The position numbers were made by a program, and so were the translations under genes. The notes under the pieces are model-generated. The model searched no databases, was not told where the DNA came from, and worked only from the letters and a program-made list of their open reading frames with translations. Positions 3,690-49,707 of a stretch of DNA of 64,000 bases are shown here, in pieces (positions within the stretch are counted from its first letter, which is position 1; the number at the start of each line of letters is the position of its first letter). Source of the stretch: Caldimonas caldifontis (GTDB lineage: Bacteria > Pseudomonadota > Gammaproteobacteria > Burkholderiales > Burkholderiaceae_C); contig NZ_PSNX01000003.1 in the NCBI RefSeq assembly GCF_002930615.1, positions 310,001-374,000 of the forward strand, given 5' to 3'.

Positions 3690-4082
3690 ATGTTCAGTCA
3701 CGTGATGGTCGGGTCCAACGACATCGAACGTTCGAAGAAGTTCTATGACGCCGTGCTGGGTGTGCTCGGCGCGGGGGAGCCCTTCCGGAACCAGAACCGC
3801 ACCGGTCAGACGCGGTTGTTCTACCGGCACAACGGCGCGACGTTCTGCGTGAGCGAGCCGATCGACGGGGCGCCGGCCACGGCAGCCAATGGTGGGACCA
3901 TCGGGTTCAAGTGCGAGTCGCCCGAGCAGGTGCGCCAGTTCCACGACACGGCGCTTGCGCACGGTGGAACGTCGATCGAAGACCCGCCGGGCCTGCGCGA
4001 AGACAAGCTGGGCGCCATGCACCTGGCCTATGTGCGGGACCCGGACGGCAACAAGCTCTGCGCCTTGCACAGGGTGAAGTAA
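3690..4082 (+). CDS. VOC-family (glyoxalase/bleomycin-resistance fold) protein
   Basis: 130 residues, the normal length for a single VOC unit made of two beta-alpha-beta-beta-beta modules. The start FSHVMVGSNDIERSKKFYDA and the end YVRDPDGNKLCALHR are the signature opening and metal-ligand-bearing closing strands of the fold. Members range from lactoylglutathione lyase-like enzymes to antibiotic-binding proteins, and the substrate cannot be read from sequence. A clear AGGAG precedes the ATG. It is followed after 12 bases by a LysE exporter gene, with which it may be co-transcribed. Confidence 0.85.
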   Translation: MFSHVMVGSNDIERSKKFYDAVLGVLGAGEPFRNQNRTGQTRLFYRHNGATFCVSEPIDGAPATAANGGTIGFKCESPEQVRQFHDTALAHGGTSIEDPPGLREDKLGAMHLAYVRDPDGNKLCALHRVK

Positions 4083-4094
4083 GCTCGCGCAAAC

Positions 4095-4721
4095 ATGCTC
4101 ACCCCCGAACAGTTCTTCGGCTTCCTGCTGGCCGCCCTCCTCATCACCGCCTCGCCGGGCCCGGACAACCTCATGGTGCTGGGCATGGGCATCTCCAAGG
4201 GGCGGCGCCACGGGGTGGCGTTTGGCCTGGGGTGTGCGCTGGGCTGCCTGAGCCACACGGCGCTGGCCGTCATCGGCGTGAGCGCGGTGATTGCGGCCTC
4301 GCCCACGGCCTTCCTGGTGCTGAAGATCGGCGGCGGGCTCTACCTGATCTGGCTGGGCATCCAGGCGCTGCGCAGCCGCGGCGGCGCGCAGGTGGCGCGT
4401 GACGGCCTGGGGGAGGAATCGCTGGCGAGGCTCTTCTTCAAGGGCGTGTTTGCCAACGCCATCAACCCCAAGGTCGTGCTGTTCTTCCTGTCCTTCCTGC
4501 CGCAGTTCGTGGTGCCGGCCAACGGCCAGGTGGGCTGGCAGATGGCGCAGCTGGGCCTCGTCTTCACCGCACAGGCCGCCCTCCTGTTTTCGCTGCTGGG
4601 GCTGTTCTCGGGCACCATCGGCCAGTGGCTGCAGAAGACGCCGCGCATCGGCCTGTGGCTCGACCGCATCGCCGGCGTCGTCTTCGTGGGGCTGGGGCTG
4701 CGGCTGATCGTCTCGCGCTGA
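4095..4721 (+). CDS. LysE/RhtB-family amino-acid exporter
   Basis: 208 residues with about six hydrophobic segments. The N-terminal LLITASPGPDNLMVLGMGIS is the classic LysE/RhtB signature (xxPGPxx in the first helix pair), and the mid-protein NAINPKVVLFFLSFLPQFV is the second conserved block. Members of this family export neutral or basic amino acids such as homoserine, threonine, lysine or arginine from the cytoplasm; which one is not predictable here. It lies 12 bases after the VOC gene. Confidence 0.9.
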   Translation: MLTPEQFFGFLLAALLITASPGPDNLMVLGMGISKGRRHGVAFGLGCALGCLSHTALAVIGVSAVIAASPTAFLVLKIGGGLYLIWLGIQALRSRGGAQVARDGLGEESLARLFFKGVFANAINPKVVLFFLSFLPQFVVPANGQVGWQMAQLGLVFTAQAALLFSLLGLFSGTIGQWLQKTPRIGLWLDRIAGVVFVGLGLRLIVSR

Positions 4722-4761
4722 GCGGGGAGGGAGCTGTCACCGAACCGTCACACGCCGCCCT

Positions 4762-4786
4762 TATGATTCGATAATCATCGAAACAT
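4762..4786 (+). promoter_or_regulatory. Probable ArsR operator and promoter of the arsenic operon
   Basis: An inverted repeat with core TTCGAT-AATC-ATCGAA (4767-4782) extends to 10-base arms with one mismatch (4763-4786). It lies 16 bases before the first gene of the arsenic operon. TATGAT at 4762-4767 is a good -10 hexamer overlapping the left arm; no convincing -35 is seen at standard spacing. ArsR repressors bind such AT-containing palindromes over the promoter and leave when arsenite binds, so this is probably the site used by the ArsR encoded at 7112. Confidence 0.65.
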
Positions 4787-4802
4787 CGACGGATTGCAGA
4801 CC

Positions 4803-5861
4803 ATGAGCGGTTCTTCCTGGCGTGTGGGCATCAACGGCATGGGCCGCATCGGGCGTCTGGCCTTGCGGGCGGCGTTGGGCGCGGCTGAACGGCCGGCCGA
4901 CGACCCGCGGGCCGGCAACCGGCTGGAGGTGGTGCACCTCAACGAGATCAAGGGCGGCGCCGCCGCCACCGCCCACCTGCTGGCCTTCGACAGCGTGCAG
5001 GGCCGCTGGCGCGAGCGCATCGAGGCCGAGGGTGAGGCAGCGGTGCACATCGGCGATCGGCGCCTGGGCTTCAGCGCCCACGCCACGCCGGGCGAGGTGC
5101 CCTGGGGCGATCTGGGGGTGGACGTGGTGCTGGAATGCACCGGCAAGTTCCTCACGCCCGAGACACTGCAAGGCCACCTCGACCGGGGCGCCAAGCGCGT
5201 GATCGTGGCGGCCCCGGTGAAGGTGGGCGAGGTGCTGAACATCGTCGTGGGCGTGAACCACGGCCTGTATGACCCGGCGAAGCACCGCATCGTGACGGCG
5301 GCGAGCTGCACCACCAACTGCCTGGCGCCGGTGGTGAAGGTGGTGCACGAGGCCCTGGGCATCCGCCATGGGCAGATCACCACCATCCACGACCCCACCA
5401 ACACCAACCTCGTGGTGGACGCGCCCCACAAGGACCTGCGCCGCGCCCGCAGCGCGATGCTGAGCCTGGCGCCCACCACCACGGGCAGCGCCACGGCGAT
5501 CGCGCTGATCTACCCCGAACTGAAAGGCAAGCTCAATGGCCATGCGGTGCGCGCCCCGGTGCTCAACGCCTCGCTCACCGACTGCGTGTTCGAGCTGCAG
5601 CGCGCCACCACCCCTGAGGAAGTGAATGCGCTGTTCAAGGCCGCGGCGGCCGGCCCGCTGGCGGGCATCCTGGGCTATGAGGAGCGCCCGCTGGTGAGCG
5701 CCGACTATGCCCGCGACACGCGCAGCAGCATCGTGGATGCACCCAGCACCATGGTGACCGACGGCACGCTGCTGAAGGTCTATGCCTGGTACGACAACGA
5801 GATGGGCTATGCCTGCCGCATGGTGGACCTGGCCTGCCACCTGCACGAGCAGGGGCTGTGA
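4803..5861 (+). CDS. ArsJ-associated glyceraldehyde-3-phosphate dehydrogenase
   Basis: A 352-residue type I GAPDH. The NAD-binding start is [10 protein letters not shown] (10-19), the catalytic segment is AASCTTNC with Cys169, and the end has [15 protein letters not shown]. Standing first in an arsenic operon directly before arsJ, it most likely forms 1-arseno-3-phosphoglycerate from glyceraldehyde 3-phosphate and arsenate; the product is then extruded by ArsJ (established for the GAPDH-ArsJ pair). ATG 4803 is chosen over an upstream TTG at 4794. Its glycolytic activity in this cell cannot be excluded. Confidence 0.92.
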
Positions 5862-5871
5862 GGCGCACCCG

Positions 5872-7098
5872 ATGAATGCCGGTACTCGCAACTACGCCCT
5901 GGTCACTGCATCGTACTGGGGCTTCACGCTCACCGACGGCGCCTTGCGCATGCTGGTGCTGCTGCACTTCTATCAGCTGGGCTACTCGCCCTTCACGCTG
6001 GCTTTCCTCTTCCTGCTGTATGAAGCGGCCGGTGTGGTGGCCAACCTCATCGGCGGCTGGCTGGCCACACGATTCGGCATTGCGCGCATGCTGGCCGTGG
6101 GCCTGGCCACGCAGATCACGGGCTTCCTGCTGCTCTCGGCGCTGTCGCCCACCTGGACGGCCGCGGCCAGCGTGGCCTGGGTGGTGATGGCGCAGGGCAT
6201 CTGCGGTGTGGCCAAGGACCTGACGAAGACGGCGAGCAAATCGGCCATCAAGCTCACGGCGGGCGAGGCCTCGGGCCAGCTCTTCAAGTGGGTGGCCTTC
6301 TTCACCGGCAGCAAGAACGCGATGAAGGGCGTGGGCTTCTTCCTGGGCGGTGTGCTGCTGCAGTCGCTGGGTTTCCAGCACTCGCTGTGGCTGATGGCGG
6401 CGCTGCTGGCGGTGGTGTTCGTGGGCGTGGTGGCGTTCGTGCCGCCGCTGATGGGCAAGAGCAAAGCCTCGAAGTCGGCGCGCGAGCTGTTTGCCAAGAA
6501 CCGTGGCATCAACCTGCTGGCCGCGGCACGCGTGGCCTTGTTCGGCGCGCGCGATGTGTGGTTCGTGGTGGGGGTGCCGGTGTTCCTGTATGCCTCGGGC
6601 TGGAACTTCACGATGGTGGGCAGCTTCCTCGCGGCCTGGACCATTGGCTACGGCGCCGTGCAGGCCCTGGCCCCGCAGATCGTGCGGCGCAGCGACGACG
6701 GCCTGAGCCACGAGGTGCCGGCGGCGCGCTGGTGGTCGGCCGCGCTGGCGGCCGTGCCGCTGGTGCTGGCCGCGCTCGTGGCGGCCGAGGTGCCGCAGCT
6801 CGAATGGGTGGTGGTGGGCGGCCTCGCGGTGTTCGGCTTTGCGTTTGCCATCAACTCCTCGGTGCACTCCTACCTGGTGCTGGCCTATGCCGGCAGCGAA
6901 AAGGCCGCCGAGGACGTGGGCTTCTACTACGCGGCCAATGCGCTGGGCCGCTTCTTCGGCACGCTGATGTCGGGCCTGCTTTACCAGTGGGGCGGGCTGT
7001 CGTGGTCGCTGGCGGGCTCGGCTGCGATGCTGCTGGCCTGCTGGGCCGTGACCCTCGCGCTGCCCACGTCCACCCACCAGACGGCGCCGGCGCACTGA
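5872..7098 (+). CDS. arsJ: ArsJ, organoarsenical efflux MFS permease
   Basis: 408 residues with about 11-12 membrane spans, starting MNAGTRNYALVTASYWGFTL. The motif block around VAKDLTKTASKSAIKL and the GSKNAMKGVGFFLGG segment are typical of ArsJ rather than of drug-efflux MFS proteins. ArsJ exports 1-arseno-3-phosphoglycerate made by the GAPDH encoded 10 bases upstream, which together gives resistance to arsenate without its reduction. The ATG at 5872 is used because the longer upstream frame overlaps the GAPDH gene and lacks family-like sequence. Confidence 0.92.
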   Translation: MNAGTRNYALVTASYWGFTLTDGALRMLVLLHFYQLGYSPFTLAFLFLLYEAAGVVANLIGGWLATRFGIARMLAVGLATQITGFLLLSALSPTWTAAASVAWVVMAQGICGVAKDLTKTASKSAIKLTAGEASGQLFKWVAFFTGSKNAMKGVGFFLGGVLLQSLGFQHSLWLMAALLAVVFVGVVAFVPPLMGKSKASKSARELFAKNRGINLLAAARVALFGARDVWFVVGVPVFLYASGWNFTMVGSFLAAWTIGYGAVQALAPQIVRRSDDGLSHEVPAARWWSAALAAVPLVLAALVAAEVPQLEWVVVGGLAVFGFAFAINSSVHSYLVLAYAGSEKAAEDVGFYYAANALGRFFGTLMSGLLYQWGGLSWSLAGSAAMLLACWAVTLALPTSTHQTAPAH

Positions 7099-7111
7099 AG
7101 GGAGCATCCCC

Positions 7112-7486
7112 ATGGTCACCATTGCTGCCCCCCGCATCGACACTGTGGACGAGACCGCCGCATTGCTGGCCATGGCCGCCCTGGCCCAGGGCGCGCGGCT
7201 GCGCATCTTCCGCACCCTGGTGGGCGCCGGCCCTGCGGGCATGACCCCGGGCGACCTCGCGGCCACGCTGGGCGTGACGGCCTCGACGCTGTCCTTCCAC
7301 CTGAAGGAGCTCATGCACGCCGGCCTCGTGAGCCAGGAGCGTGACGGGCGCCACCTCATCTACCGCCCCGAGATCGCACGCATGAACGGGCTGCTCGCCT
7401 ACCTCACCCAGCATTGCTGCCAGGGCGAGGACTGCGGGCTCACCCCCGTGGCGGCGCCCCAGGGCCGCGGCTGCACCACCTGTTGA
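7112..7486 (+). CDS. arsR: ArsR-family arsenic-responsive repressor
   Basis: 124 residues with a winged helix-turn-helix (LAATLGVTASTLSFHLKELM, about 49-68, then the wing SQERDGRHLIYR). The usual CxC metal site in the recognition helix is absent; instead Cys102, Cys103 and Cys108 (HCCQGEDC) sit near the C-terminus, with a further pair Cys121 and Cys124. C-terminal vicinal cysteines of this kind bind arsenite in the Acidithiobacillus-type ArsR. It probably represses its own operon through the palindrome at 4763-4786. Confidence 0.9.
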   Translation: MVTIAAPRIDTVDETAALLAMAALAQGARLRIFRTLVGAGPAGMTPGDLAATLGVTASTLSFHLKELMHAGLVSQERDGRHLIYRPEIARMNGLLAYLTQHCCQGEDCGLTPVAAPQGRGCTTC

Positions 7487-7508
7487 CGTCCACAAGCAAA
7501 GGTCCAAC

Positions 7509-8009
7509 ATGAACACGTCCGGCAAGGTCTACAACGTCCTCTTCATCTGCACTCACAACTCGGCGCGCTCGATCATGGCCGAAGGCCTGCTGAACAGCCT
7601 GGCGCGCGGAAGCTTCCGCGCGCACTCGGCCGGCAGCCATCCGGCGGGCTTCGTCCAGCCTCTGGCGCTGCAGACGCTGGCGAAGCTGCAGGTGCCCACC
7701 GACGGGTTCCGCAGCAAGGACTGGTCGGAGTTCGCCCAGCCCGGTGCACCGGTGATGGACTTCGTGTTCACCGTATGCGACCAGGCCGCCGGCGAGGTGT
7801 GCCCCGTGTGGCCCGGCCAGCCCATGACCGCGCACTGGGGCGTGCCCGATCCTTCGCGGGTGCAGGGCACTGAGGAGCAGAAGGCCCGCGCCTACTGGGA
7901 CACCGCCACCATCCTGAAGCGCCGCATCGAGCTGATGCTGGCCCTGCCGCTGGCCTCGCTCGACCGGCTCGCCATCCAGCGCGAGATCACCGACATCGGC
8001 CAGCGCTGA
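7509..8009 (+). CDS. arsC: Arsenate reductase, low-molecular-weight phosphatase type
   Basis: 166 residues. The phosphatase-type P-loop is CTHNSARS with nucleophile Cys14, and the second region [16 protein letters not shown] holds Cys90 and Cys98, compatible with the disulfide cascade cysteines of thioredoxin-linked ArsC. WGVPDPS carries the catalytic Asp114. It reduces cytoplasmic arsenate to arsenite for export by the Acr3 pump encoded 8 bases downstream. The C-terminal extension (about 120-166) is longer than in the smallest ArsC proteins but common in proteobacterial members. Confidence 0.9.
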
Positions 8010-8017
8010 ACGCCGCC

Positions 8018-9043
8018 ATGGGTCTGTTCGAACGCTACCTCACCGTGTGGGTGGGGCTGGGCATCCTGGCCGGCGTGGGGCTGGGGCTGGTCGTGCCCGG
8101 CGCCTTCCGGGCAATTGCCGCGCTGGAGTTCGCGCATGTGAATCTGGTGGTGGCCGTCTTCATCTGGGTGATGATCTATCCGATGATGATCCAGATCGAC
8201 TGGTCGGCCGTGCGTCAGGTGGGCCAGCGGCCGGGGGGGCTGGCCCTCACGCTGGTGGTGAACTGGCTCATCAAGCCCTTCACGATGGCGGCGCTGGGTG
8301 TGTTGTTCTTCGAGCATCTCTTTGCCCCCTGGGTTGATCCGCAATCGGCCAGCGAGTACATCGCCGGGATGATCCTGCTGGGCGTGGCGCCGTGCACGGC
8401 CATGGTCTTCGTCTGGAGCCAGCTCGTGAAGGGCGATGCCGCCTACACGCTGGTGCAGGTGTCGGTGAACGACCTGATCATGGTGGTGGCCTTTGCCCCC
8501 ATCGCCGCCTTGCTGCTGGGCGTGACCGATCTCACCGTGCCCTGGGAAACGCTGGTGCTGTCCACCGTGCTGTACGTGGTGCTGCCGCTGCTGGCCGGCC
8601 TGGCCACACGCCGCGTGCTGCAGCGCCGCTCGCCCCACGCAGTGGGCGACTTCGTGGCCTGGCTCAAGCCCGCGTCGGTGGCGGGGCTGGTGGCCACGGT
8701 GGTGCTGCTGTTCGGCTTCCAGGCCGACACGCTGGTGTCCCAGCCGCTGGTGATCGCGATGATCGCGGTGCCGCTGGTGCTGCAGACCTACGGCATCTTT
8801 GCGCTGGCCTGGGCCGGCGCCCGCCTCATGCGTCTGCCGCACGCGATCGCCGGACCGGCCTGCCTGATCGGCACCAGCAACTTCTTCGAGCTGGCGGTGG
8901 CCGTGGCCGTGTCGCTCTTCGGGCTGAACTCCGGTGCCGCCCTGGCCACGGTGGTGGGGGTGCTGGTCGAGGTGCCGGTGATGCTCTCGCTGGTGTGGGT
9001 GGTCAACCGCAGCCGCCCCCTGGAGCCGGCGCTGGCGGATTGA
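8018..9043 (+). CDS. acr3: Acr3-type arsenite efflux transporter
   Basis: 341 residues with about ten membrane spans. [20 protein letters not shown] contains the conserved cysteine of helix 4 required in Acr3 pumps, and [15 protein letters not shown] and [19 protein letters not shown] are further family blocks. It moves arsenite (and possibly antimonite) out of the cell using the membrane potential, disposing of the product of ArsC. Last gene of the arsenic operon, 8 bases after arsC. Confidence 0.93.
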
Positions 9044-9142
9044 CCGGGTGACACAAATCCTGGCGGGCCGTGTCGATCGCCGCCGGCTTGCTTCGTCGTG
9101 GGAAGGGCAGCTTGAATCCCAACCCACTCAAGGAGAGCGACG

Positions 9143-9595
9143 ATGCGAGTCATGGTGATGGTCAAGGCCACGGCCGAAACCGAGGCCGGTGTGATGCCCA
9201 GCGAGGAAATGTTTGCCGAGATGGGCCGTTTCAACGACGAGCTGGTGAAGGCCGGGGTGATGCTGGCGGGCGAAGGCCTGCACCCCACTTCCCGGGGGGC
9301 GAGGGTGCGCTTCTCGGGGACCGAGCGAACCGTGGTGGATGGGCCGTTTGCTGAAACCAAGGAGCTGGTCGCGGGGTTCTGGATCTGGCAGGTGAAGTCG
9401 TTCGACGAGGCGGTCGCGTGGGCCAAGCGCTGTCCCAACCCCACGGGCGTCCAGGGCGTGCTGGAGCTGCGTCCCATTTACGAGGCCGAAGACTTCGGTG
9501 ACGCCCTCACGCCGGAACTGCGGGCACAGGAAGACCGCCAGCGCGCCGAGATGGAGCGCCAGGCCGCGGCGCGCGCCGCGGCCGCAGGCCAGTAA
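9143..9595 (+). CDS. YCII-related (DGPF-domain) protein
   Basis: 150 residues. The start MRVMVMVKATAETEAGVMPS and the block GTERTVVDGPFAETKELVAG contain the DGPF signature of the YCII-related family, a ferredoxin-like fold of uncertain biochemistry that often stands beside ECF sigma factors. No sigma factor gene is adjacent here. The C-terminal 30 residues are an alanine/glutamine-rich tail. AGGAGAG lies 8-14 bases before the ATG. Function unknown. Confidence 0.8.
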   Translation: MRVMVMVKATAETEAGVMPSEEMFAEMGRFNDELVKAGVMLAGEGLHPTSRGARVRFSGTERTVVDGPFAETKELVAGFWIWQVKSFDEAVAWAKRCPNPTGVQGVLELRPIYEAEDFGDALTPELRAQEDRQRAEMERQAAARAAAAGQ

Positions 9596-9676
9596 CGACG
9601 CCGGTGGCCGGCCCGTTGCGGCGGAGGCCGCGCCGGCGTCGCTGGCGAGTCGCGGGGTTCGGCGGACAATGAAGGG

Positions 9677-11011
<1,335 letters not shown>

Positions 11012-11032
11012 CCGCACCGCACGGCCTGCGCT

Positions 11033-11407
11033 TCAGGTGACCAGCGTCGGCAGGCCGCGGTCCTCCATCACCGGCTCCTGGAACTCCTCGGCCATCGCAA
11101 AGGCCAGCACCAGGGCCGAGCCGGCCAGCACCAGGGTCAGGCCGTAGCGCAGCCATCGGCTGATGCGAGGGGTGAGCGGGGCGTGGTGCGTGCGTTCGGC
11201 CCACCAGTCGCGCGCGGCCAGCATGGCAAAGCCGGCCAGGGCAAACAACGAGAGTGAGAGCGACCACAGCGACCAGCCTGCAAAGAGGGTGCCGGCCGCG
11301 GGCGGGGCCTTGGCGGGCAGGAAGAGGACATCCTGCGCCAGCAGGTAGCCTCCCGCACTGCCCAGGGCGAGCGCCAGCACGACGTTGATGACGATCCGGC
11401 CGAACAT
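11033..11407 (-). CDS. Hypothetical membrane protein, 124 residues
   Basis: Starts [20 protein letters not shown]. Three or four hydrophobic segments can be seen: about 5-25, 44-66, and 87-107 (YGLTLVLAGSALVLAFAMAE), so it should lie in the inner membrane. No motif or family is recognised. The minus-strand frame extends upstream, but the longer product overlaps the next gene with an atypical composition, so the internal ATG at 11407 is chosen. Convergent with chrA. Confidence 0.6.
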   Translation of the reverse strand: MFGRIVINVVLALALGSAGGYLLAQDVLFLPAKAPPAAGTLFAGWSLWSLSLSLFALAGFAMLAARDWWAERTHHAPLTPRISRWLRYGLTLVLAGSALVLAFAMAEEFQEPVMEDRGLPTLVT

Positions 11408-11535
11408 GCCGCCTTGTCTCCTGGGCGATCGATGGGGGCGTGGTGGCCCGATCGTGCACCAGAAGTCTAAAGTGTGCAATATGTCACGAACCGGGGCGGG
11501 CGTGGCGCCCAGGGGTCGCCGCCCCGGCGGGGTGT

Positions 11536-12366
11536 TCAGCGAGCGAGCTCCTGCGCAAACTCCACCAGCGCCCAGCTGCGCAGCGGAGATCGCAGGTCGA
11601 GCTTGGCTCGCAAGGTTTCTCGGCCGGCCTGGCACAGTTCCTGGGCATTGGCGGCACCGATGTTGCCGAAGGCGCGGTAGGCGGTGTCGGGGTCGGGCAT
11701 GCGCTGCCAGCGCGCCTCGGTGGCGCCGGCCAGGGCCTTCTCCAGCAACTGGGCCTGGGTGTCGGTGAGTTGCCGCGGCGCCGGCTGGCCGCGCACCTGG
11801 GCCAGCACCGCACGGCGTTGCACGGCGAAATGGGCTTCCATCTGCTCGGGCGGCAGGGTGCCCAGCCAGGCGCGCTCGATCATCTGCACCTGTTCGGCGC
11901 TGAGGTCGCTCACGATGAGGCGCTTGCAGATGGAGGGCGGGACCCAGCCCATGAGTTCGATGCTGGCACGCAGCAGCCGCTCGATGTCCGCATCGTCCAG
12001 GCGCGCGATGCCCCCGGTGATCAGGGCCAGGCCCGCTTCGGCGAAGTAGCGGGCGCGTTCTTCCTCGCTGAACCGCGCGAGCGCGCTGTCCTCGATCATG
12101 CCGGCCAGCCGGACGGTGACTTCCGGGTTTCCCAGCGTGGCGCGATAGTGCCGGCGGATGACCGAGCGCTGCTCGGCCGACGCACGCGGAAACGAGACCT
12201 GGGCCATGCGCTCGAGGAAGGCCTCGTCCTGGTAGATGCGCAACAGCTCGGCGGCCATGGGCGGCACGGCGGTCTGGGCCGAACTGCCCAGGCTGGTGAG
12301 CGCGAGACCCAGGGCCGTCAGCAAGGCGCGCGAGCAACGCGCAAGGCGGTTGGAACGGGGCAGCAT
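11536..12366 (-). CDS. Hypothetical exported protein
   Basis: 276 residues from MLPRSNRLARCSRALLTALG, a good Sec signal peptide ending near SSAQT. The mature part is helical with conserved-looking blocks SVIRRHYRATLGNPEVTVRL and ELMGWVPPSICKRLIVSDLS. I do not recognise the family and see no catalytic signature. It is probably periplasmic. A longer frame to 12477 exists, but the signal peptide fixes the likely start at 12366. Confidence 0.65.
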   Translation of the reverse strand: MLPRSNRLARCSRALLTALGLALTSLGSSAQTAVPPMAAELLRIYQDEAFLERMAQVSFPRASAEQRSVIRRHYRATLGNPEVTVRLAGMIEDSALARFSEEERARYFAEAGLALITGGIARLDDADIERLLRASIELMGWVPPSICKRLIVSDLSAEQVQMIERAWLGTLPPEQMEAHFAVQRRAVLAQVRGQPAPRQLTDTQAQLLEKALAGATEARWQRMPDPDTAYRAFGNIGAANAQELCQAGRETLRAKLDLRSPLRSWALVEFAQELAR

Positions 12367-12487
12367 CGAGACACTCCGCAAGCCGGTGGACCAGGACGGT
12401 GCCATGGTAGTGCGCCGCCGCCGGGCCTGGCGAGCCCCCGGGTGGAGGGGCATACCTGTGCGTGTGCAATAGCGCACGCGGCCTGTT

Positions 12488-13162
12488 TCACCGGCGTTGT
12501 TCCAGGACCGCGGGCGGGTTGCTCGCGGGTGCGGCGGGCGCGACCATCAGGTCGCGCAGCGAGGCCAGGGCCAGGGCCAGGAAGGCCGCGGCGCACAGCC
12601 GATAGGTGATGCGCGCCCAGCCCGGGCCGGCACGACGGAAGAGCCGGTCCACGATGGCTGCGCACACGAAGCACCACAGCACCGACGAGGCCATGAAGCC
12701 GGAAAGGAAGAGGCCGTAGTCGGCCGCGGTGGGCTGCTGCACGCCCACCGCGCCGAGTGCACTGCCCAGGGCGGCCCAGAAGGCGATGTTGTGGGGGTTG
12801 GTGAGCGACAGCGTCACGCCCGAGCGCAGTGCGCGCGACGCATCGGTGCGCGACGAACCACCGGTGTCCAGATGAAACTCGTGGCTGGCCGAGCGCCAGG
12901 CATCCCAGGACAGCCAGGCCAGGTAGGCCACGCCGGCCAGGCCCACGGGCCAGCGCAAGGCCTCCACCTGCAGCAGCACGCCCACGCCGGCCAGGCCGAG
13001 CACGGCCCAGGTGGCATCGCCCACCAGCGAGCCCACCTGCACCGCAAAGGCCGGGCGGAAGCCCCCGCGCACGCCCTGGCGCACGGTTTCGGCAAAGACG
13101 GCGCCGGGCGCGGCGTTGAAGACGAGGCCCAGCACGAAGGCGGCGGCAAAGAGCGTGAACAT
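12488..13162 (-). CDS. LysE-family amino-acid exporter
   Basis: 224 residues with about six membrane spans. The N-terminal NAAPGAVFAETVRQGVRGGF corresponds to the family's P-G-P block, and SLTNPHNIAFWAALGSALG is the second conserved segment. It exports amino acids or derivatives; the substrate is unknown. The start lies 9 bases after the stop of the GMC oxidoreductase gene, so the two are likely co-transcribed and may handle related compounds. Confidence 0.85.
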   Translation of the reverse strand: MFTLFAAAFVLGLVFNAAPGAVFAETVRQGVRGGFRPAFAVQVGSLVGDATWAVLGLAGVGVLLQVEALRWPVGLAGVAYLAWLSWDAWRSASHEFHLDTGGSSRTDASRALRSGVTLSLTNPHNIAFWAALGSALGAVGVQQPTAADYGLFLSGFMASSVLWCFVCAAIVDRLFRRAGPGWARITYRLCAAAFLALALASLRDLMVAPAAPASNPPAVLEQRR

Positions 13163-38098: not shown

Positions 38099-38389
38099 TC
38101 AACGCTCGTCGTCGTGGAGGGACGAAGGGTGACGACAGAGCGGCAACACCGTGATGTCCATGTAGGGAAAGAGCGGCAGGCGCATGAGGGTGTCGTGCAG
38201 CGTGGCGTGGTCGGGCACGTCGAAGATGCTGACGTTGGCGTACTGGCCGGCGATGCGCCACAGGTGGCGCCACACACCCTCGCGCTGGAGCTGCTGGGCG
38301 AGGGCCTTCTCGCGGGCCTTGAGGTCGGCCGCCACTTCGGTGGGCAGGTCGGCCGGCAGGCGCACAGTCATCTGGACGTGATACAGCAT
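38099..38389 (-). CDS. catC: Muconolactone delta-isomerase
   Basis: 96 residues, exactly the usual CatC length. MLYHVQMTVRLPADLPTEVA, then REGVWRHLWRIAGQYANVSI, then LFPYMDITVLPLCRHPSSLH match the family throughout. It isomerises muconolactone to 3-oxoadipate enol-lactone in the catechol branch of the beta-ketoadipate pathway; the enzyme forms a decamer. It lies 3 bases after catB. Confidence 0.95.
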   Translation of the reverse strand: MLYHVQMTVRLPADLPTEVAADLKAREKALAQQLQREGVWRHLWRIAGQYANVSIFDVPDHATLHDTLMRLPLFPYMDITVLPLCRHPSSLHDDER

Positions 38390-38392
38390 GGT

Positions 38393-39562
38393 TCAGACCT
38401 TGGTGGAAGGCGCGGTCACGCGGATGGAGGTGTGCGTGCGGTCGCGCCGGTAGTGGGCGAGCTTGTCTTCGTCGATCTGCAGGCCCAGGCCGGGGCCGGT
38501 GGGCAGGTGCAGTTCGAAGTCGCGGAAGACAGGGCGTTCGACGACGATGTCGTCCTTCAGCAGCAGGGGGCCGAAGAGCTCGGTGCCCCAGGCCAGCTGC
38601 GGGCAGGTGGCAAAGGTGTGGGCGGCGGCCACGCTGCCGAGGCTGCCTTCGAGCAGGGTGCCACCGTACAGTCCGATGCCCGCGGCGTCGGCCACGGCCG
38701 CGGCACGCAGGGTTTCGCCGGGGCCGCCGGCCTTGGACAGCTTCAGCGCAAACACATCGGCGGCGGCGTTGCGGGCCAGCTCGAAGGCATCGATCGCGTC
38801 GTTGAAACCTTCGTCCGCCATGATCGGCACGTCGAAGCGGGCGCTCAGTCGCGCCAGGGCGCCGCGGTGACGGCGCGAGACGGGCTGTTCGATGAGGCCC
38901 ACGCCCGCGGCTTCGAGGGCGGCGATGGCGCGGGTGGCTTCGGCCTCGTCCCAGGCCTGGTTGGCGTCCACGGTGATCAGCACCTCGTCGCCGAGCGCCC
39001 GCTTGATGGCGGCCACGTGGGCCACGTCAGCGGCTACGTCTCGGCGGCCCACCTTGAGCTTGAAGACCTTGTGGCGGCGCTGCTCGATGAGCGCCAGGGC
39101 CTCGTCGATGTCGCGTGTGCTGTCGCCGCTGGCCAGGGTCCACAGCACCGGCAGCGTCGCTCGCACGGCGCCGCCGAGCAGCGCATGCACGGGCAGGCCG
39201 CGGCGCCGGCCCTCGGCGTCGAGCAGGGCCGTCTCGATCGCCGACTTCGCCAACGACTGGCCCTGGACCGAACGCACGAGCCAGGCCATCGCGGCATTCA
39301 CGTTGGTGGCGTCCAGGCCGATCAGCAGCGGGGCGAGGTAGGTGTCGATCGCGAGCTTGACGCCTTCGGGGCTTTGATCGCCATAGGCCAGGCCGCCGAT
39401 GCTGGTGGCTTCCCCCACGCCTTCGTGCCCGTCGCTGCAGCGCAGGCGCACGATCACCAGGGTCTGCCGGTGCATCACCGTCATCGCCAGCTTGTGGGCG
39501 CGGATGGTGGGCAGGTCGACCAGAAGGGTTTCGACGGCGGTGACGGTGATCGCGGGCTTCAT
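38393..39562 (-). CDS. catB: Muconate cycloisomerase
   Basis: 389 residues from ATG 39562. Enolase-superfamily features are visible: the catalytic lysine region HKVFKLKVGRRD, metal ligands in TVDANQAWDE, in LIEQPVSR and in IMADEGFND, and the later lysine in DVFALKLSKAGG. It cyclises cis,cis-muconate to muconolactone. Slightly longer than typical CatB (about 370-375). With catC it forms a two-gene operon; catA is not in the window. Confidence 0.93.
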   Translation of the reverse strand: MKPAITVTAVETLLVDLPTIRAHKLAMTVMHRQTLVIVRLRCSDGHEGVGEATSIGGLAYGDQSPEGVKLAIDTYLAPLLIGLDATNVNAAMAWLVRSVQGQSLAKSAIETALLDAEGRRRGLPVHALLGGAVRATLPVLWTLASGDSTRDIDEALALIEQRRHKVFKLKVGRRDVAADVAHVAAIKRALGDEVLITVDANQAWDEAEATRAIAALEAAGVGLIEQPVSRRHRGALARLSARFDVPIMADEGFNDAIDAFELARNAAADVFALKLSKAGGPGETLRAAAVADAAGIGLYGGTLLEGSLGSVAAAHTFATCPQLAWGTELFGPLLLKDDIVVERPVFRDFELHLPTGPGLGLQIDEDKLAHYRRDRTHTSIRVTAPSTKV

Positions 39563-39598
39563 GCATTCATCTTGGTTGCCACGGCGCCTCGCGTCCAA

Positions 39599-39621
39599 TA
39601 TCGTTTGTGTCCTGCGCGATA
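39599..39621. promoter_or_regulatory. Candidate CatR-binding site
   Basis: TATCG (39599-39603) and CGATA (39617-39621) form an interrupted inverted repeat in the 73-base gap between the divergent catB and catR genes. LysR-type regulators use such short interrupted dyads near their own start. The match is modest. Confidence 0.4.
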
Positions 39622-39635
39622 CCCAGGAGGTATGG

Positions 39636-40538
39636 ATGGAACTGCGACACCTGCGCTATTTCGAGGCCGTGGCCCGCGAGATGAGCTTCAGCCGTGCGGC
39701 TGAGCGGCTGCACATCGCGCAGCCGCCCTTGAGCCGCCAGATCCGTCAGCTCGAAGACGAGCTGGGCGCGCAACTGATCGACCGCCAGGCGCGCCCTCTG
39801 CAGCTCACACCGGCCGGGCGCTTTTTCTACGAGCAGGTGGTACAGCTGCTCGGGCGCGTGAAGGAAGCGGCCGAGGCCACGCGCCGCATCGCCGAGGGCG
39901 AACGGACCTGGTTCGGCATCGGCTTCGTGCCCTCCACGCTGTATGGTTTCCTGCCCGACCTGATCCGGCGCTTTCGCAGCGGATTGCAGGGGGTGGAGGT
40001 GGGGCTGTCGGAGCTGACCACGCTGCAGCAGGCCGAGGCCCTCAAGGCCGGGCGCATCGACGTGGGCTTCGGCCGGCTGGTGCTGGACGACCCGGCCCTG
40101 CACGGCGAGGTGGTGCTGCAGGAGGCCCTGGTGGCGGCCCTGCCCTCGCGCCACAAGCTGCTGGGGCAGGCCCGCGTGAGCCTGGCGCGCCTGGCCGACG
40201 AGCCGCTGGTGCTCTACCCGGCGAGGCCACGGCCCAGCTATGCCGACCACGTGCTCGAGATCTTCCGCACCCGCTCGCTGTCACCCAAGGTGGCCTTCGA
40301 GGCCAACGAGATGCAGACGGCCATCGGCCTGGTGGCGGCCGGTGCCGGCGTGGCCCTGGTGCCCGAGTCGGTGCAGCGCCTGCACCGCGACGACGTGAGC
40401 TACCGGCCGCTCAGTGATGCGGGCGTGAGCTCACCGGTGATCATGAACTGCCGGGCCGACGATCGCTCGCCCTTGCTGGCGCGGCTGCGCGCGCAGCTGC
40501 GTACACAGGCGCGGGCCCAGGAGCGCCGGCGCTCCTAG
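39636..40538 (+). CDS. catR: LysR-family regulator, CatR/BenM type
   Basis: 300 residues from ATG 39636, with AGGAGG 6-11 bases upstream. MELRHLRYFEAVAREMSFSR and AAERLHIAQPPLSRQIRQLE are the characteristic N-terminus of CatR/BenM/CatM proteins. These activate catBC when cis,cis-muconate binds. Divergent position to catB supports the role. Its last 108 bases overlap a small minus-strand gene (40431-40703). Confidence 0.9.
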   Translation: MELRHLRYFEAVAREMSFSRAAERLHIAQPPLSRQIRQLEDELGAQLIDRQARPLQLTPAGRFFYEQVVQLLGRVKEAAEATRRIAEGERTWFGIGFVPSTLYGFLPDLIRRFRSGLQGVEVGLSELTTLQQAEALKAGRIDVGFGRLVLDDPALHGEVVLQEALVAALPSRHKLLGQARVSLARLADEPLVLYPARPRPSYADHVLEIFRTRSLSPKVAFEANEMQTAIGLVAAGAGVALVPESVQRLHRDDVSYRPLSDAGVSSPVIMNCRADDRSPLLARLRAQLRTQARAQERRRS

Positions 40539-40703
40539 CGCACCTTCAGGCGCCTCGTCGAGGAAGCGCGCCTCCGGCACGGTGTCGGACCACGCGCAGG
40601 AGTCCAGGCGGGCCAGGGCCCCCGCCGGCCGGTGGCGTCCCGGGGCCCGCAGGGGCCAGCCGGCGATGCGGGACAGTTCCTGCCACAGCGGGGGTGATTG
40701 CAT
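40431..40703 (-). CDS. Small unknown protein (90 residues) in the repeat-controlled locus
   Basis: The ATG at 40703 has an excellent ribosome-binding site (AAGGAG, 5-10 bases upstream) and the 35-bp element at 40766-40800 lies 62 bases further up, in the same orientation and at nearly the same distance as for the 84-residue gene at 43725. The product begins MQSPPLWQELSRIAGWPLRA and is arginine/proline-rich afterwards; no membrane segment or known domain. The last third overlaps the 3' end of catR antisense, so the C-terminus may be shaped by that constraint. Function unknown. Confidence 0.55.
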   Translation of the reverse strand: MQSPPLWQELSRIAGWPLRAPGRHRPAGALARLDSCAWSDTVPEARFLDEAPEGALGAPALLGPRLCTQLRAQPRQQGRAIVGPAVHDHR

Positions 40704-40765
40704 GACAACTCCTTGATTCGGCAGCGTTGGTTGGCGGTGACGGCAGTGTCCGGCGTCCGGGACGG

Positions 40766-40800
40766 GCTGTCGTCAGGACGCGGTCCGGTTTCGGTCAGGC
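40766..40800 (-). promoter_or_regulatory. 35-bp element, copy 1: three 11-bp direct repeats
   Basis: Read on the minus strand, the units CCTGACCGAAA, CCGGACCGCGT and CCTGACGACAG follow each other at exactly 11-base steps. The whole element recurs at 44031-44065 with 33 of 35 bases identical. It lies between the small gene 40431-40703 and the divergent regulator gene (start 40848). Direct repeats at 11-base steps are the usual target of OmpR/PhoB-type winged helices, the domain carried by that regulator. Confidence 0.75.
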
Positions 40801-40847
40801 GAGTGTGGACGCCCCGTATGACACAGGCATGCGTACCATCTGCACCC

Positions 40848-43718
40848 ATGGACGCCCCGCTGCGCTTCGGCCCCTTCGAACTCGACATCGCCAACGTCCG
40901 CCTGGTGCGGGACGGCCAGCCGGTCAGCCTGCCGCCCAAGGCCTTTGCCCTGCTGGCCTGCCTGGCCGCCCGCCCCGGCCAGCTCGTCAGCAAGGACGAG
41001 CTGCTCGATGCCGTCTGGGGCCGTCGCTTCGTCAGCGAGGGGGTCATCAAGACGGTGGTGAGCGAGTTGCGCGCCGCCCTGGACGACGACCCGCGCCAGC
41101 CCCGGTGGATCGAGACCGTGGCCCGACGCGGCTACCGTTTCGTCGGTGGCGCGGCCGCCGGGGTGGCGCAGGCACCCACCGGTGCACCAGCGGGCCTGAT
41201 CGGCCGGGAGGCGGAACTGAGCGCGCTGCATTCGGCCTGGAAGGCAGCGCAGACGGGCCAGCGCCGCTTCATGTTGGTGGCGGGCGAGCCGGGCGTGGGC
41301 AAGAGCGCCCTGCTGGCGGCCTTCGTGGCCGGCATCGAGCAGGGTCGTGTGGTGTCGGGCCAGTGTGTGGAGGCCTATGGCAGTGATGAGCCTTACCTGC
41401 CGGTGCTGGAAGCCCTGGGCCAGATGTGTGCCGCCGAGCCGGACCTCGTGCCCACCTTGCGCCGCTTTGCACCCACCTGGCTCGTGCAACTGCCCTGGCA
41501 CCTCACCGAGGCCGACCGCGCCACGCTGCAGCGCGAGGTGACCGGCGCCACGCAGGACCGCATGCTGCGCGAGGCCGGCGCCCTGCTCGACCACCTGGGC
41601 CAGGACCAGCCCCTGCTGCTGGTGCTGGAAGACCTGCACTGGGCCGACCCGGCCACGGTGCGATTGCTCGACGTGCTGGCGCGCCGCCGCGCCCCGGCCC
41701 GGCTGATGATCGTCTGCAGCTTCCGGCCAGCCGACGTGGCCATTGCCGACCACCCCTTCGGCGACCTGCGGCGCGAGCTGCGCCTGCACCGCCTGGTGGA
41801 CGAGGTGGTGCTCGAAGGCCTGGATCCGCCCCGCCTGGCCGCGCTGCTGGATCAGCGCTTCGGCCCGCCCGCGCTGCCCCCGACCTTCGTGCAGGCCCTG
41901 CACCAGCACACCGAAGGCCTGCCGCTGTTTGTGCTGGGGGTGCTCGACGAACTGGTGGCCGACAGCGCGCTGGTGCCGCGCGAGGAAGGCGGCTGGCGTC
42001 TGGCGGGCGACCCGACCGCGCCCCTGCCGGTGCCGGCCAGCCTGGCCGGTGTGATCGAGAAGCAGTTCATGCGCCTGCCGCCCGAGGTGCGCGCCCTGCT
42101 GGAAACCGCCGCGCTGGCGGCACCCGAGTTCCAGCACCTGCAGCTTGCCGAGGCCATGGGCCTGCCGGCGGACACCGTGCGCGAGCGGCTGGAGGGCCTG
42201 CTGCGCCGGCAGATCTGGCTGCGCGCTGCCGGAGCAAAAGAACTGCCCGACGGCCGCTGGGCGCTGGGCTGCACCTTCGAGCATGCGCTGATCCGCCACA
42301 CCCTGGCGCGCCGTGTGGGCCCGTCGCTGCGGGTGGAGCGCCACCGCCGCCTGGCCGATGCGCTGGAAGCGGCCTGGGGCGCGCGGGTGGGGGAGATCGC
42401 CACCGAGTTGGCGATGCACGCCGAGCAGGGCCATGAGCCCCTGCGCGCCGCGCGCTACTGCGCCCTGGCGGCACGCAACGCCCTGCAGCGCCGCGCCGCG
42501 CGGGAAGCGCTGGCCATGGCGCGGCGGGGCCTCGACCTGATCGAGCCGCTGGACGCCGCCGCGCGCCGCGAGGCCGAACTGCCCCTGCTGGCGCTGCGCC
42601 TGACCGCCACCATGCTCACCGAAGGCCTGTCGTCGCCTGCGGCCCGCCCGCTGGTGGCCCAGGCGCTGGCCCTGGTGCAGGACCTGCCCGTCACACCCGA
42701 CACCGCTGCGCTGTGGCACGTGGCCCTGCTGGTGCACGTGACCGGCCGCCTGCCGGGCACGGGGGACCTGGCGCAGCGCTTCTTCGAGCGCGCCCAGGCC
42801 GGCGGCGATGCGCAGTGCCGCGCGGCGGCCCACAACATGGTGGGCGCGAACCGGCTGCACGAAGGCCACCTCACCGACAGCATTGCGCAGTTCGAAGCCT
42901 CGCTGGCCCTGGCCGAGGGCTCACCACCACCGGCCGCGCCCATCCTGCTGCGCGACCCGCGCATCGAGGCCCTGTCCTATCTGTGCCTCACCGAAACCGT
43001 GGCCGGGCGCTTTGCACGTGCGCGCGAGCGCAGCGCGGCGCTGGACGCCTTCATCGCCGCCGGCACCGACCTCATCAGCGAGGGCCTGGGCCGCTGGTTC
43101 CAGGTCTATGCGCACGTCTACCGTCGCGACGCGGCGGCGCTCAAGCCCGTCAGCGAACACATCGTGGCCTTGCTGGAAGCGCGCGGCGCTTCGCCCGCCC
43201 TGCAGCCGCACCGCATGGCCCTGGGCTGGGCGCGCGCCCAGCTCGGGGAAGCCGCCGAGGGGGCGGCCCTGGCCGCCGACGCCCTGGCCCGCTACCGCGC
43301 CCAGGGCAGCCGCCAGGGGCTGGTGGGCCTGTGCGCGATGGTGGGCGAGGCCCTGCGCCTGGCGGGTGATCGAGAGGCCGCACTTGCCTGTGTGCGCGAC
43401 GGCGAGGCCGCGGCCGCCGAGCTGGGCGACGCCTATGCCCGGTCGACCCTGATGCGGCTGGCGGCCGACCTGGCGCTGGACGCCGACCCGGACGATGACC
43501 ACGCCGAAGCCGTGCTGCAGGAAGCGGCGGCCCTGGCCAGCCGTCAGGCAGCGGTGCTGATCGAAGCGGGGGTGTGGGTGAGGCTGGCTCCCCTGATGGC
43601 CGGGCGCGGGCGCCGCGAGGCGGCCCGCGAAAGCGTGACACGGCTGATGGCGCGCGCCGAACCGGCGGATGACGCCCCGGTGCTCAGGGACCTGCGCGCC
43701 TGGCTGGCCGGCGCCTGA
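40848..43718 (+). CDS. Winged-helix/AAA ATPase transcriptional regulator, 956 residues
   Basis: Domain order: an OmpR/PhoB-type winged helix at about 5-100 (RFGPFELDIANVRLVRDGQP, then VIKTVVSELRAALDDDP and RGYRFVGG), an AAA/STAND-type ATPase from about 117 (LIGREAELSALHSAW) with P-loop GEPGVGKS (146-153) and Walker B LLLVLEDLHWAD (256-267), and an all-helical C-terminal 400 residues that look TPR-like. No sensor domain for a known ligand is seen. Such MalT/AfsR-like proteins use ATP- and ligand-dependent oligomerisation. ATG 40848 is the last start before the conserved winged helix. Flanking 35-bp elements are its likely targets. Confidence 0.87.
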   Translation: MDAPLRFGPFELDIANVRLVRDGQPVSLPPKAFALLACLAARPGQLVSKDELLDAVWGRRFVSEGVIKTVVSELRAALDDDPRQPRWIETVARRGYRFVGGAAAGVAQAPTGAPAGLIGREAELSALHSAWKAAQTGQRRFMLVAGEPGVGKSALLAAFVAGIEQGRVVSGQCVEAYGSDEPYLPVLEALGQMCAAEPDLVPTLRRFAPTWLVQLPWHLTEADRATLQREVTGATQDRMLREAGALLDHLGQDQPLLLVLEDLHWADPATVRLLDVLARRRAPARLMIVCSFRPADVAIADHPFGDLRRELRLHRLVDEVVLEGLDPPRLAALLDQRFGPPALPPTFVQALHQHTEGLPLFVLGVLDELVADSALVPREEGGWRLAGDPTAPLPVPASLAGVIEKQFMRLPPEVRALLETAALAAPEFQHLQLAEAMGLPADTVRERLEGLLRRQIWLRAAGAKELPDGRWALGCTFEHALIRHTLARRVGPSLRVERHRRLADALEAAWGARVGEIATELAMHAEQGHEPLRAARYCALAARNALQRRAAREALAMARRGLDLIEPLDAAARREAELPLLALRLTATMLTEGLSSPAARPLVAQALALVQDLPVTPDTAALWHVALLVHVTGRLPGTGDLAQRFFERAQAGGDAQCRAAAHNMVGANRLHEGHLTDSIAQFEASLALAEGSPPPAAPILLRDPRIEALSYLCLTETVAGRFARARERSAALDAFIAAGTDLISEGLGRWFQVYAHVYRRDAAALKPVSEHIVALLEARGASPALQPHRMALGWARAQLGEAAEGAALAADALARYRAQGSRQGLVGLCAMVGEALRLAGDREAALACVRDGEAAAAELGDAYARSTLMRLAADLALDADPDDDHAEAVLQEAAALASRQAAVLIEAGVWVRLAPLMAGRGRREAARESVTRLMARAEPADDAPVLRDLRAWLAGA

Positions 43719-43724
43719 TCCGGC

Positions 43725-43979
43725 TCAGACCACGCCGCTCAGGCCCTCGGGGGAACGCCAGGCCGGCGGCGGCTCCTCGGTGGCGGCCTCCACCAGCACC
43801 TGGGCCTGTTCGTGCACCAGGCAGGCCAGCAGGGCCGGACCATTGTCGAAGTCGTGCCGGCGTCCGCTGCTCACATGCTCCAGCCGCCCGCTCAGGCCGC
43901 CAGGCGAGCGCGGGTCGGGCAGATGGAGCTTGATCACGTAGACGCAATCGGACGGGCGGGGGGCGGCGGCGGTGTTCAT
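43725..43979 (-). CDS. Small unknown protein (84 residues) with a repeat-controlled promoter
   Basis: ATG 43979 has AGGA about 8 bases upstream and the second 35-bp element 51 bases further up. The product reads DCVYVIKLHLPDPRSPGGLS, then GRLEHVSSGRRHDFDNGPAL, then LACLVHEQAQVLVEAATEE. The beta-rich core with GRLEHVxSGxxxDF followed by a helix resembles small unnamed proteins I have seen in proteobacteria, with no assigned function. It converges with the regulator gene, 6 bases apart. Confidence 0.7.
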   Translation of the reverse strand: MNTAAAPRPSDCVYVIKLHLPDPRSPGGLSGRLEHVSSGRRHDFDNGPALLACLVHEQAQVLVEAATEEPPPAWRSPEGLSGVV

Positions 43980-44030
43980 GGACGATCCTGGCAGCGAGTC
44001 TGGCCACCAGTCTCTCGCGCCAGGGCCGCC

Positions 44031-44065
44031 GCTGTCGTCAGGGCCCGGTCCGGTTTCGGTCAGGC
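44031..44065 (-). promoter_or_regulatory. 35-bp element, copy 2: three 11-bp direct repeats
   Basis: Minus-strand units CCTGACCGAAA, CCGGACCGGGC and CCTGACGACAG. It differs from copy 1 at only two bases, both in the variable tail of the middle unit and outside the CCKGAC cores. It begins just beyond the stop of mmsA (44070) and sits upstream of the 84-residue gene (start 43979). Confidence 0.75.
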
Positions 44066-44069
44066 CGCC

Positions 44070-45587
<1,518 letters not shown>

Positions 45588-45662
45588 GGCGGTCTCCTGG
45601 TGAAGGGAATGCACCCAGTCTAGGACGCCCGGCCGGCCGATCCAAGCGCCAACGCGTGACTA

Positions 45663-48126: not shown

Positions 48127-48239
48127 GAAAAAATAAACTGAGCAGTTATATTTCTGCCCATCCGGTCACCGAAGCAATGCAGGTCATGACTTCGGACCCG
48201 GACGGGAGGGGCATCCGGATTCGTTTCAGGAGAACCCCA

Positions 48240-49220
48240 ATGTCTCGATGGCTCAAAAGCATGCTCGTGGCCTCTTCGGTGGCCTTCCTTGCCGCCTGTG
48301 GCGGTGGTGACGATGACGACGATGCCGTGGCATCGCAGAACATCGTCCAGATCGCGCAGGGCAACCCTGCGTTCAGCACCCTCGTTGCGGCCGTCGTGAA
48401 GGCCGACCTCGTGGATGCGCTGTCCGGCGACACCCAGCTGACCGTCTTTGCCCCGACCAACGAGGCCTTCGACGCCGCGGCACAGGCCATCGGCCTGGCC
48501 GATGGCACGGCCCTGGTGGAGACGCTGCCCGCCGACGCGCTGGGCAAGATCCTCACCTACCACGTGGTGGCGGGCGACAACCCCTCCACGTCGCTGACGG
48601 CCGGCACCCTGCCAACGCTCTATACCTTCGAGGACAGCGCCGCCACCCTCGGTCTCAGCCTGACCGGCGGGGTGATCCTCACGGACGCCCTGGGGACCAC
48701 GGCCAACGTCACCACGCCCGACATCGACGCCAGCAACGGCGTGATCCACGTCATCGACAAGGTGCTGGTGCCCCCCGGCGTGCTCGACATCGTGCAGATG
48801 GCGCGGCTCAACCCGACGTTCTCGACCCTGGTCGCGGCTGTCGAGGAAGCCGACCTGGTCGCCACGCTGTCGGGCACGGGCCCCTTCACGGTGTTCGCCC
48901 CGACCAACGACGCCTTTGCCGCGGCGCTGGCCGAGCTGGACCTGACGGCCGAGCAACTGCTGGCCTCGCCGGACCTCGCCGCCATCCTGACCTACCACGT
49001 GGTGGGCGGTGATCTGCGGGCGGCCGACGTGGTGGCCCTCGTCAGCGGTGGCGCGGCCGACGTGACGACCGTCCAGGGCGACACCTTCAATGTGAGCCCC
49101 GCCCTGGTCATTACAGACGGTCGTGCGCGCACGGCCAACCTCGTCGCCACCGACGTGGTGGCCAGCAATGGGGTGATCCATGTGATCGATGCGGTCATTC
49201 TGCCGCCCGTTGCCCCCTGA
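48240..49220 (+). CDS. Fasciclin (FAS1) lipoprotein with two FAS1 domains
   Basis: 326 residues from ATG 48240 (CAGGAGAACC upstream). A lipoprotein signal [20 protein letters not shown] has the lipobox LAAC, so it is lipid-anchored, with a glycine/aspartate linker. Two FAS1 domains follow: [20 protein letters not shown] with [13 protein letters not shown], ending [15 protein letters not shown], and the second [20 protein letters not shown] with [14 protein letters not shown], ending [17 protein letters not shown]1 domains mediate adhesion. Probably repressed by the divergent TetR protein. Confidence 0.92.
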
Positions 49221-49251
49221 GTCCCGTTCCCTTCAACCAAGGAGTCTTTCC

Positions 49252-49707
49252 ATGAAGAAACTGCTGATCGCCACCGCCCTGAGCCTCGGCCTGAGCGCCG
49301 CCGCCTGGGCCAAGGACATCGTCGACACCGCCGTCTCGGCCGGCTCGTTCAAGACCCTGGTCGCCGCTGTCCAGGCCGCGGGCCTGGTCGACACCCTGAA
49401 GGGCCCCGGCCCGTTCACGGTGTTCGCCCCCACCGACGAGGCCTTCGCCAAGATCCCCAAGGCCCAGCTCGACGCGCTGCTGGCCGACAAGGCCAAGCTG
49501 ACGGCCGTGCTGACCTACCACGTCGTGCCGGGCAAGGTCATGGCCGCTGACGTCAAGGCCGGCAAGGTCAAGACCGTGCAGGGCCAGGAACTGACCATCG
49601 GCACGATGGGGGGTGTGACGGTGAACAACGCCCGCGTGACGGCCACGGATGTGACCGCGAGCAATGGTGTGATCCATGTGATCGACACCGTGGTGCTGCC
49701 GCAGTAA
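49252..49707 (+). CDS. Secreted single-domain fasciclin protein
   Basis: 151 residues. A Sec signal peptide ([20 protein letters not shown]) is followed by one FAS1 domain ([20 protein letters not shown] with [31 protein letters not shown] and [14 protein letters not shown]). It lies 31 bases after the two-domain lipoprotein gene and shares its closing motif, so the pair probably arose by duplication and is co-transcribed. Exported to the periplasm or outside; an adhesive or surface role is inferred. A terminator follows. Confidence 0.92.

Follow-up and report, generated by a model that had tools for sequence, protein, structure and literature searches.

A STAND-type winged-helix regulator of Caldimonas caldifontis recurs with predicted 11-bp direct-repeat promoters and a small gene

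The regulator and the systems closest to it

Activators of the MalT/LAL type are one-component STAND proteins with a TPR-like sensor region, and MalT carries a LuxR-type DNA-binding domain at its C-terminus. The response regulators PhoB and OmpR have a winged helix of the Pfam family Trans_reg_C, and PhoB occupies tandem 11-bp repeats (pho boxes) near the -35 position. In the AfsR-afsS system, afsS is a small gene. AfsR itself, a large SARP of Streptomyces that belongs to the STAND family, places its OmpR-type domain on two 11-bp repeats overlapping the -35 position, and its NOD and TPR domains inhibit it until ATP binds; as a rule, SARP direct repeats lie 11 or 22 bp apart, with the 3' repeat 8 bp from the -10 element (PMC10936776).

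The regulator described here is encoded in Caldimonas caldifontis, in a stretch of 64,000 nucleotides that was analysed as a whole ("the window", to which all positions refer). The features of the locus are the following:

40431..40703, minus strand: 90-aa ORF, a doubtful gene that overlaps the 3' end of a convergent LysR gene; good ribosome-binding site, weak codon signal
40745..40750, minus strand: GACACT, predicted as the -10 hexamer for element 1; the first unit starts 46 bases earlier
40766..40800, minus strand: predicted operator/promoter element 1, reading away from the regulator; matrix score 24.0
40848..43718, plus strand: regulator, 956 aa; OmpR/PhoB-type winged helix at residues 23-98, AAA_16 STAND-type ATPase at 117-289, C-terminal TPR-like region
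43725..43979, minus strand: 84-aa small gene, the founding query of a family of about 70 aa; core YVxKL...GRLExxxSGxxxxF...LL
44009..44014, minus strand: GAGACT, predicted as the -10 hexamer for element 2 (family consensus TANNNT); the first unit starts 47 bases earlier
44031..44065, minus strand: predicted operator/promoter element 2, three 11-bp units with the third over the -35 position; matrix score 26.9

As the original prediction had it, the 956-aa protein between the elements combines a winged helix with a STAND-type ATPase: it matches both Trans_reg_C (1e-21) and AAA_16 (1.9e-25) in Pfam, and only a short stretch separates the end of the winged helix (residue 98) from the start of AAA_16 (residue 117). 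The window regulator itself has no Pfam TPR match, and its TPR region is visible only through the regulator family profile, which gives a TPR-type match at positions 613-797. Trans_reg_C and AAA_16 are both present in 50 of 50 aligned family members, among which TPR_12 occurs in 36, NACHT in 9, NB-ARC in 3 and TPR_MalT in 9; the P-loop residues G149, G151 and K152 are invariant in the alignment. With a P-loop core of the AAA/NACHT/NB-ARC type and sensor repeats, this is a family of STAND ATPases.

AfsR is the closest studied design, since the AfsR-afsS system shares with the window family an OmpR-type winged helix, a nucleotide-binding STAND core, a TPR region, 11-bp repeats at -35 and a target gene (PMC10936776). 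The window family differs in lacking the BTA domain, which defines SARPs; this domain is absent among the 25 of 26 Pfam families listed for the 50 members. Its repeats comprise three units, the last over -35, whereas those of AfsR comprise two, both between -40 and -19, and its last unit begins 24 bp before the -10 element, a spacing that seems to depart from the 8 bp of the SARP rule (PMC10936776). Its hosts are mostly proteobacteria among the 80 named loci (the best 80 of 119 relatives), whereas AfsR belongs to actinomycetes. The small family, compared through Pfam, NCBIfam and PHROG, has no convincing match there. Because of the missing BTA domain and the third repeat unit, the family would appear, by analogy, to work like AfsR without being a SARP.

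The comparison with PhoB and OmpR is limited to the winged helix, as no receiver domain is among the Pfam matches listed for the window protein and the 50 members, and the winged helix is instead fused to the STAND ATPase and TPR region. The window family resembles MalT/LAL proteins in its sensor (hence TPR_MalT in 9 of the 50 members), but its DNA-binding domain is N-terminal and of the OmpR type. Among the papers listed in a literature survey, none dealt with this family. Two other assignments were tried and rejected: an anti-phage STAND system, as PADLOC gave no match for the three window proteins at E<=0.01, and a plasmid origin, which received no support, with three partial matches at 35-36% for the regulator and none for two small proteins.

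Beside the regulator, at 38099-40538, lie genes for a muconate cycloisomerase (TIGR02534) and a muconolactone isomerase (assigned by eye) and the LysR gene. FAD hydroxylase genes of aromatic catabolism also stand beside the regulator in Pseudomonas (L115) and Rivibacter (L100, by eye), and such neighbours may hint at an aromatic signal. Farther along the window, at 48177-49707, neighbouring ORFs, two in number, contain 140-nt repeats in common (three copies overall), as in repeated-domain proteins.

The two repeat elements and the ORFs behind them

A repeat search of the window recovered the two elements in the same orientation, identical at 33 of 35 positions (94%) and 3265 bp apart from start to start. 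On the minus strand, each consists of three units at 11-bp steps, CCTGAC-N5-CCGGAC-N5-CCTGAC, with 0 mismatches, and the two differences between the elements (CGCGT versus CGGGC) fall outside the hexamers. With up to three mismatches allowed, this pattern matches the window twice, as against 0.17 times expected from shuffles. Position, orientation, identity and unit pattern agree with the original prediction, as do the start codons, with an ATG at 40703, 62 nt downstream of element 1, and another at 43979, 51 nt downstream of element 2. The good ribosome-binding sites claimed for both genes hold for the 90-aa ORF (5/6 to AGGAGG), whereas that of the 84-aa gene is moderate (4/6).

Element 2 agrees at 14 of 14 positions with GACC-N7-GACC-N7-GACGAC, 54 nt before the ATG of the 84-aa gene, whose coding score exceeds those of all 315 out-of-frame windows. 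The element lies 4 bp past the stop codon of a methylmalonate-semialdehyde dehydrogenase gene (44070-45614, minus strand; TIGR01722), and because so little room separates them the 84-aa gene may well need its own promoter. Both predicted -10 hexamers of the window depart from the family consensus, so the window promoters may be weak or decaying.

The 90-aa ORF behind element 1 is doubtful as a gene. It has no homologue among the ORFs of 84 regulator loci, and its outside matches in 200 family genomes are weak (best E 1.1e-4). One of these (G604) sits in another frame of a long ORF, judged by eye, with a similar match in G506 (longer stretches L263 and L264). Scored over its first 55 codons, it ranks lower than 62 of 63 true windows in codon usage but higher than about 95% of the 315 false ones. 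This ORF occupies the place that a divergent small gene takes in relatives, and element 1 lies in the region of their divergent operator; the element may thus be an older, divergent promoter that lost its small gene or had it replaced. The proposal that three genes form one system therefore needs to be narrowed: regulator, operators and small gene recur together, but membership of the 90-aa ORF, with no homologue found and a poor coding signal, is not supported.

Operators and small genes in relatives

When 399 genomes drawn from the order were searched with the 84-aa protein, its best outside matches were those in G376 and G192. There the small gene adjoins a regulator relative of full length (37-39% identity), and repeats with this same period lie upstream of it; G192 has a second small gene on the opposite side of one regulator. 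Named genomes were then scanned with a four-row regulator alignment, giving 80 loci. Adding the window and three loci of G376 and G192 brings the total to 84 loci, or 82 once the duplicates L082 and L111 are dropped. In a FastTree tree of 77 regulators, that of the window joins those of L080 and L079 (support 100) within a group of 20, and 11 of these keep the divergent small gene. In the same tree, the regulator of a Klebsiella pneumoniae MAG (L152) groups with that of a Deltaproteobacteria MAG (L147), and the contig of the former may be misbinned.

An iterated profile at E<1e-3 found 60 small-family ORFs in 57 of the 84 loci, which, without duplicates, become 57 ORFs in 55 of 82 loci that had been picked by their regulator. 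Forty of the 57 lie downstream of the regulator on the same strand, 15 are divergent and upstream, one is upstream on the same strand, and one, that of the window, is convergent, a placement unique among them. In 47 of the 57, the small gene is within 400 bp of the regulator. The family gave no convincing match in Pfam, NCBIfam or PDB, nor in PHROG for the two members tried there. Weak matches to beta-lactamase models (best E 9e-4, in 4 of 42 members) and to others, and a match to an anti-CRISPR structure (E 0.25), were taken as chance.

A separate search with the small-family profile at E<=1e-6, covering 369 genomes drawn independently from the class, returned the family in five genomes besides that of C. 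caldifontis, and beside such a regulator in one of the five (G835). No site of at least 10 bits lies near any of these five matches, one of which (G774) is on a 4.3-kb contig near efflux-type genes with no regulator visible there. The other three of the five (L270, L271 and L272, from G777, G721 and G887, respectively) share the core YIVRIYRRD..GRVENxESG, with no such regulator or site nearby; judging from this core, they look like a wider family of distant kin.

GACC-N7-GACC-N7-GACGAC, matched at 12 or more of 14 positions, is found upstream of 47 of the 60 small genes, or 45 of 57 once duplicated contigs are set aside. The opposite strand has it in 2 of 60, and taking the best of 20 shuffles for each gene gives 4 of 60. 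A count made independently of any pattern, over 36 non-redundant upstream regions, gave 45 GAC pairs at a distance of 11 and 17 at a distance of 22; across 500 random draws, pairs at distance 11 averaged 1.8 and never exceeded 9. We built a 30-column matrix from 45 sites and scanned 1.09 Mb with it, obtaining 124 matches at a threshold of 14 bits and none with the mirrored matrix; about one third of the 124 are training sites, and three pairs are overlapping registers of one site (L078, L083, L091). A TANNNT hexamer follows in 109 of the 124, starting at column 46 in 99 and at column 47 in 10, against a background of 0.0016 per position, in columns that lay outside the matrix. This conserved hexamer 46-47 bases from the first unit identifies the sites as predicted promoters with their third unit over -35.

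These sites cluster around the regulator, with 112 within 2.5 kb of it (379 kb searched) and 12 farther off (477 kb). Among the 82 loci, some of them short, cut stretches, 20 lack sites of 14 bits or more, 27 show no detectable small gene and 14 have neither; 13 have sites and no small gene. The small gene follows 46 of the 124 sites, and a gene of a cluster labelled NodT-type (outer-membrane efflux subunit) after its one tested member (L115) follows 36; behind another 39 lie diverse ORFs, some of which are probably not genes, and three have no ATG ORF behind them. The expectation that the element would stand only before small genes thus fails in relatives, where the 36 and 39 sites precede efflux and other genes.

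In most Pseudomonas loci with sites, the two sites are about 330 bp apart, and in L115 the second heads genes for an OMF, an MFP and an RND permease. Single tested genes behind other sites encode a PHA synthase (L265), an AI-2E permease (L129), an amidohydrolase (L086), DUF3141 and CoA transferase proteins (L100) and a DUF4148 protein (L128). At about 10.0-10.4 kb in L123 and L129, back-to-back repeat promoters separate the small gene from a divergent AI-2E permease gene (Pfam in L129). A 14.5-kb stretch of Ramlibacter monticola (L091) has five matrix matches at 3394-12940, which are four distinct sites, one of them in two overlapping registers. They precede genes that cluster with the DUF3141, DUF4148 and OMF genes of other loci, as well as a gene for a small exported protein (by eye), and this set appears from its sequence to be a local regulon. 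The near relative L079 (5893-9861) has three repeat promoters round one regulator, one before the regulator gene itself, one before a 187-aa gene whose product resembles, by eye, an ECF-type sigma factor, and one before the small gene that is weaker, at 10/14.

How the module may work

The elements are conserved across these loci at a fixed spacing from the -10 hexamer and are linked to regulator and small gene. On sequence grounds, the recurrence of winged-helix ATPase regulator, predicted 11-bp direct-repeat operators and small gene as one module is well supported. We consider it probable that the regulator is a one-component STAND activator of its own dedicated promoters, with the small gene as its principal target and the small protein as its partner; DNA binding, activation and ATP control by the regulator, and the partner role, are what we infer from this arrangement. 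At rest, the ATPase and TPR parts would keep the winged helix inactive, until a signal, with ATP binding, frees it. Winged-helix protomers would then occupy the 11-bp repeats in head-to-tail order, with the final protomer covering the -35 position, and would bring RNA polymerase to the -10 element 17-18 bp past that position. The small protein of about 70 aa encoded next to the regulator would be the main product and could serve as a feedback or output factor. In the window, one promoter would drive the 84-aa gene, while the other would fire into the region of the ORF at 40431-40703, where relatives have their divergent small gene.

The same positions would suit a repressor: its protomers, once bound, would keep the -35 region closed until the ATPase set them free. 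The third unit covers -35, the -10 hexamer fits TANNNT in most relatives, and position alone does not give the sign of control. However, no good -35 hexamer is visible by eye under the repeats. PhoB is an activator on its direct repeats. AfsR likewise activates from repeats of this type (PMC10936776), and we regard repression as unlikely.

Another conserved regulator might occupy the element, with the STAND protein a linked neighbour or itself a target, and the site before the regulator gene in L079 and the 13 loci with sites and no small gene would agree with this. It seems improbable, as the sites track the regulator and not the genus and the 11-bp period suits an OmpR-type winged helix. The strict form GACC-N7-GACS-N7-KACGACT has 38 sites in 21 of 28 regulator genomes, being absent from the other 7, and none in 30 other genomes, in which only weak or partial regulator relatives were found and eight of which are of the window's genus; read backwards, it has 6 matches in all 59 genomes. 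Since the sites of C. caldifontis end in A, its genome has none in this form. Tightened slightly, the pattern returned 7 sites, spread over 5 of the order's 399 genomes (reversed pattern: 11), four in two regulator genomes (G192 and G065) and three as singletons in genomes with no such regulator. Seven genomes of this draw have a regulator relative that contains the winged helix or is cut by a contig end, and the strict form is present in two and missing from five, C. caldifontis included. The element thus follows the regulator type, as the original prediction supposed, if not always in front of small genes, and the dispersal away from the regulator that would have told against it was not seen, with three strays among 399 genomes, a number not above that of the reversed pattern.

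That the elements are a dispersed repeat or debris of a mobile element is scarcely credible. In favour of this reading, they are two near-identical copies 3.3 kb apart, and their likeness barely extends beyond the element itself. Yet perfect GACC-N7-GACC-N7-KACGAC occurs at only two places in the 3.64-Mb genome, both in the window beside the regulator, which also argues against another binder and is why we do not consider the element a dispersed repeat. One further place has one mismatch, and the 40 places with two are at chance level (184 for the same pattern read backwards). Conservation across genera with a fixed -10 spacing also speaks against debris.

Beyond activation as such, we suggest tentatively that the module is a counterpart of AfsR-afsS in Burkholderiales, Pseudomonas, Shewanella and others. 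Its activator, of winged-helix, STAND and TPR parts with no BTA domain, would have its own three-unit promoter, and a family of proteins of about 70 aa would bind and tune it; in some hosts, it might control genes of RND efflux along with others of membrane or storage function.

Although STAND regulators hold a central place in signalling, the promoters they act on and the inducers they answer to are known for few of them. For the present family, dozens of loci offer a target promoter predicted at single-base level, in many cases accompanied by a second site ahead of an efflux operon. This opens to direct test whether the regulator binds, which sign the control has, what the inducer is and what the small proteins, a family without a name, do. 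The family suggests that an AfsR-like design exists outside actinomycetes and without the BTA domain, and the repeated association of regulator, promoter and very small partner gene points to a control module that is widespread yet undescribed.
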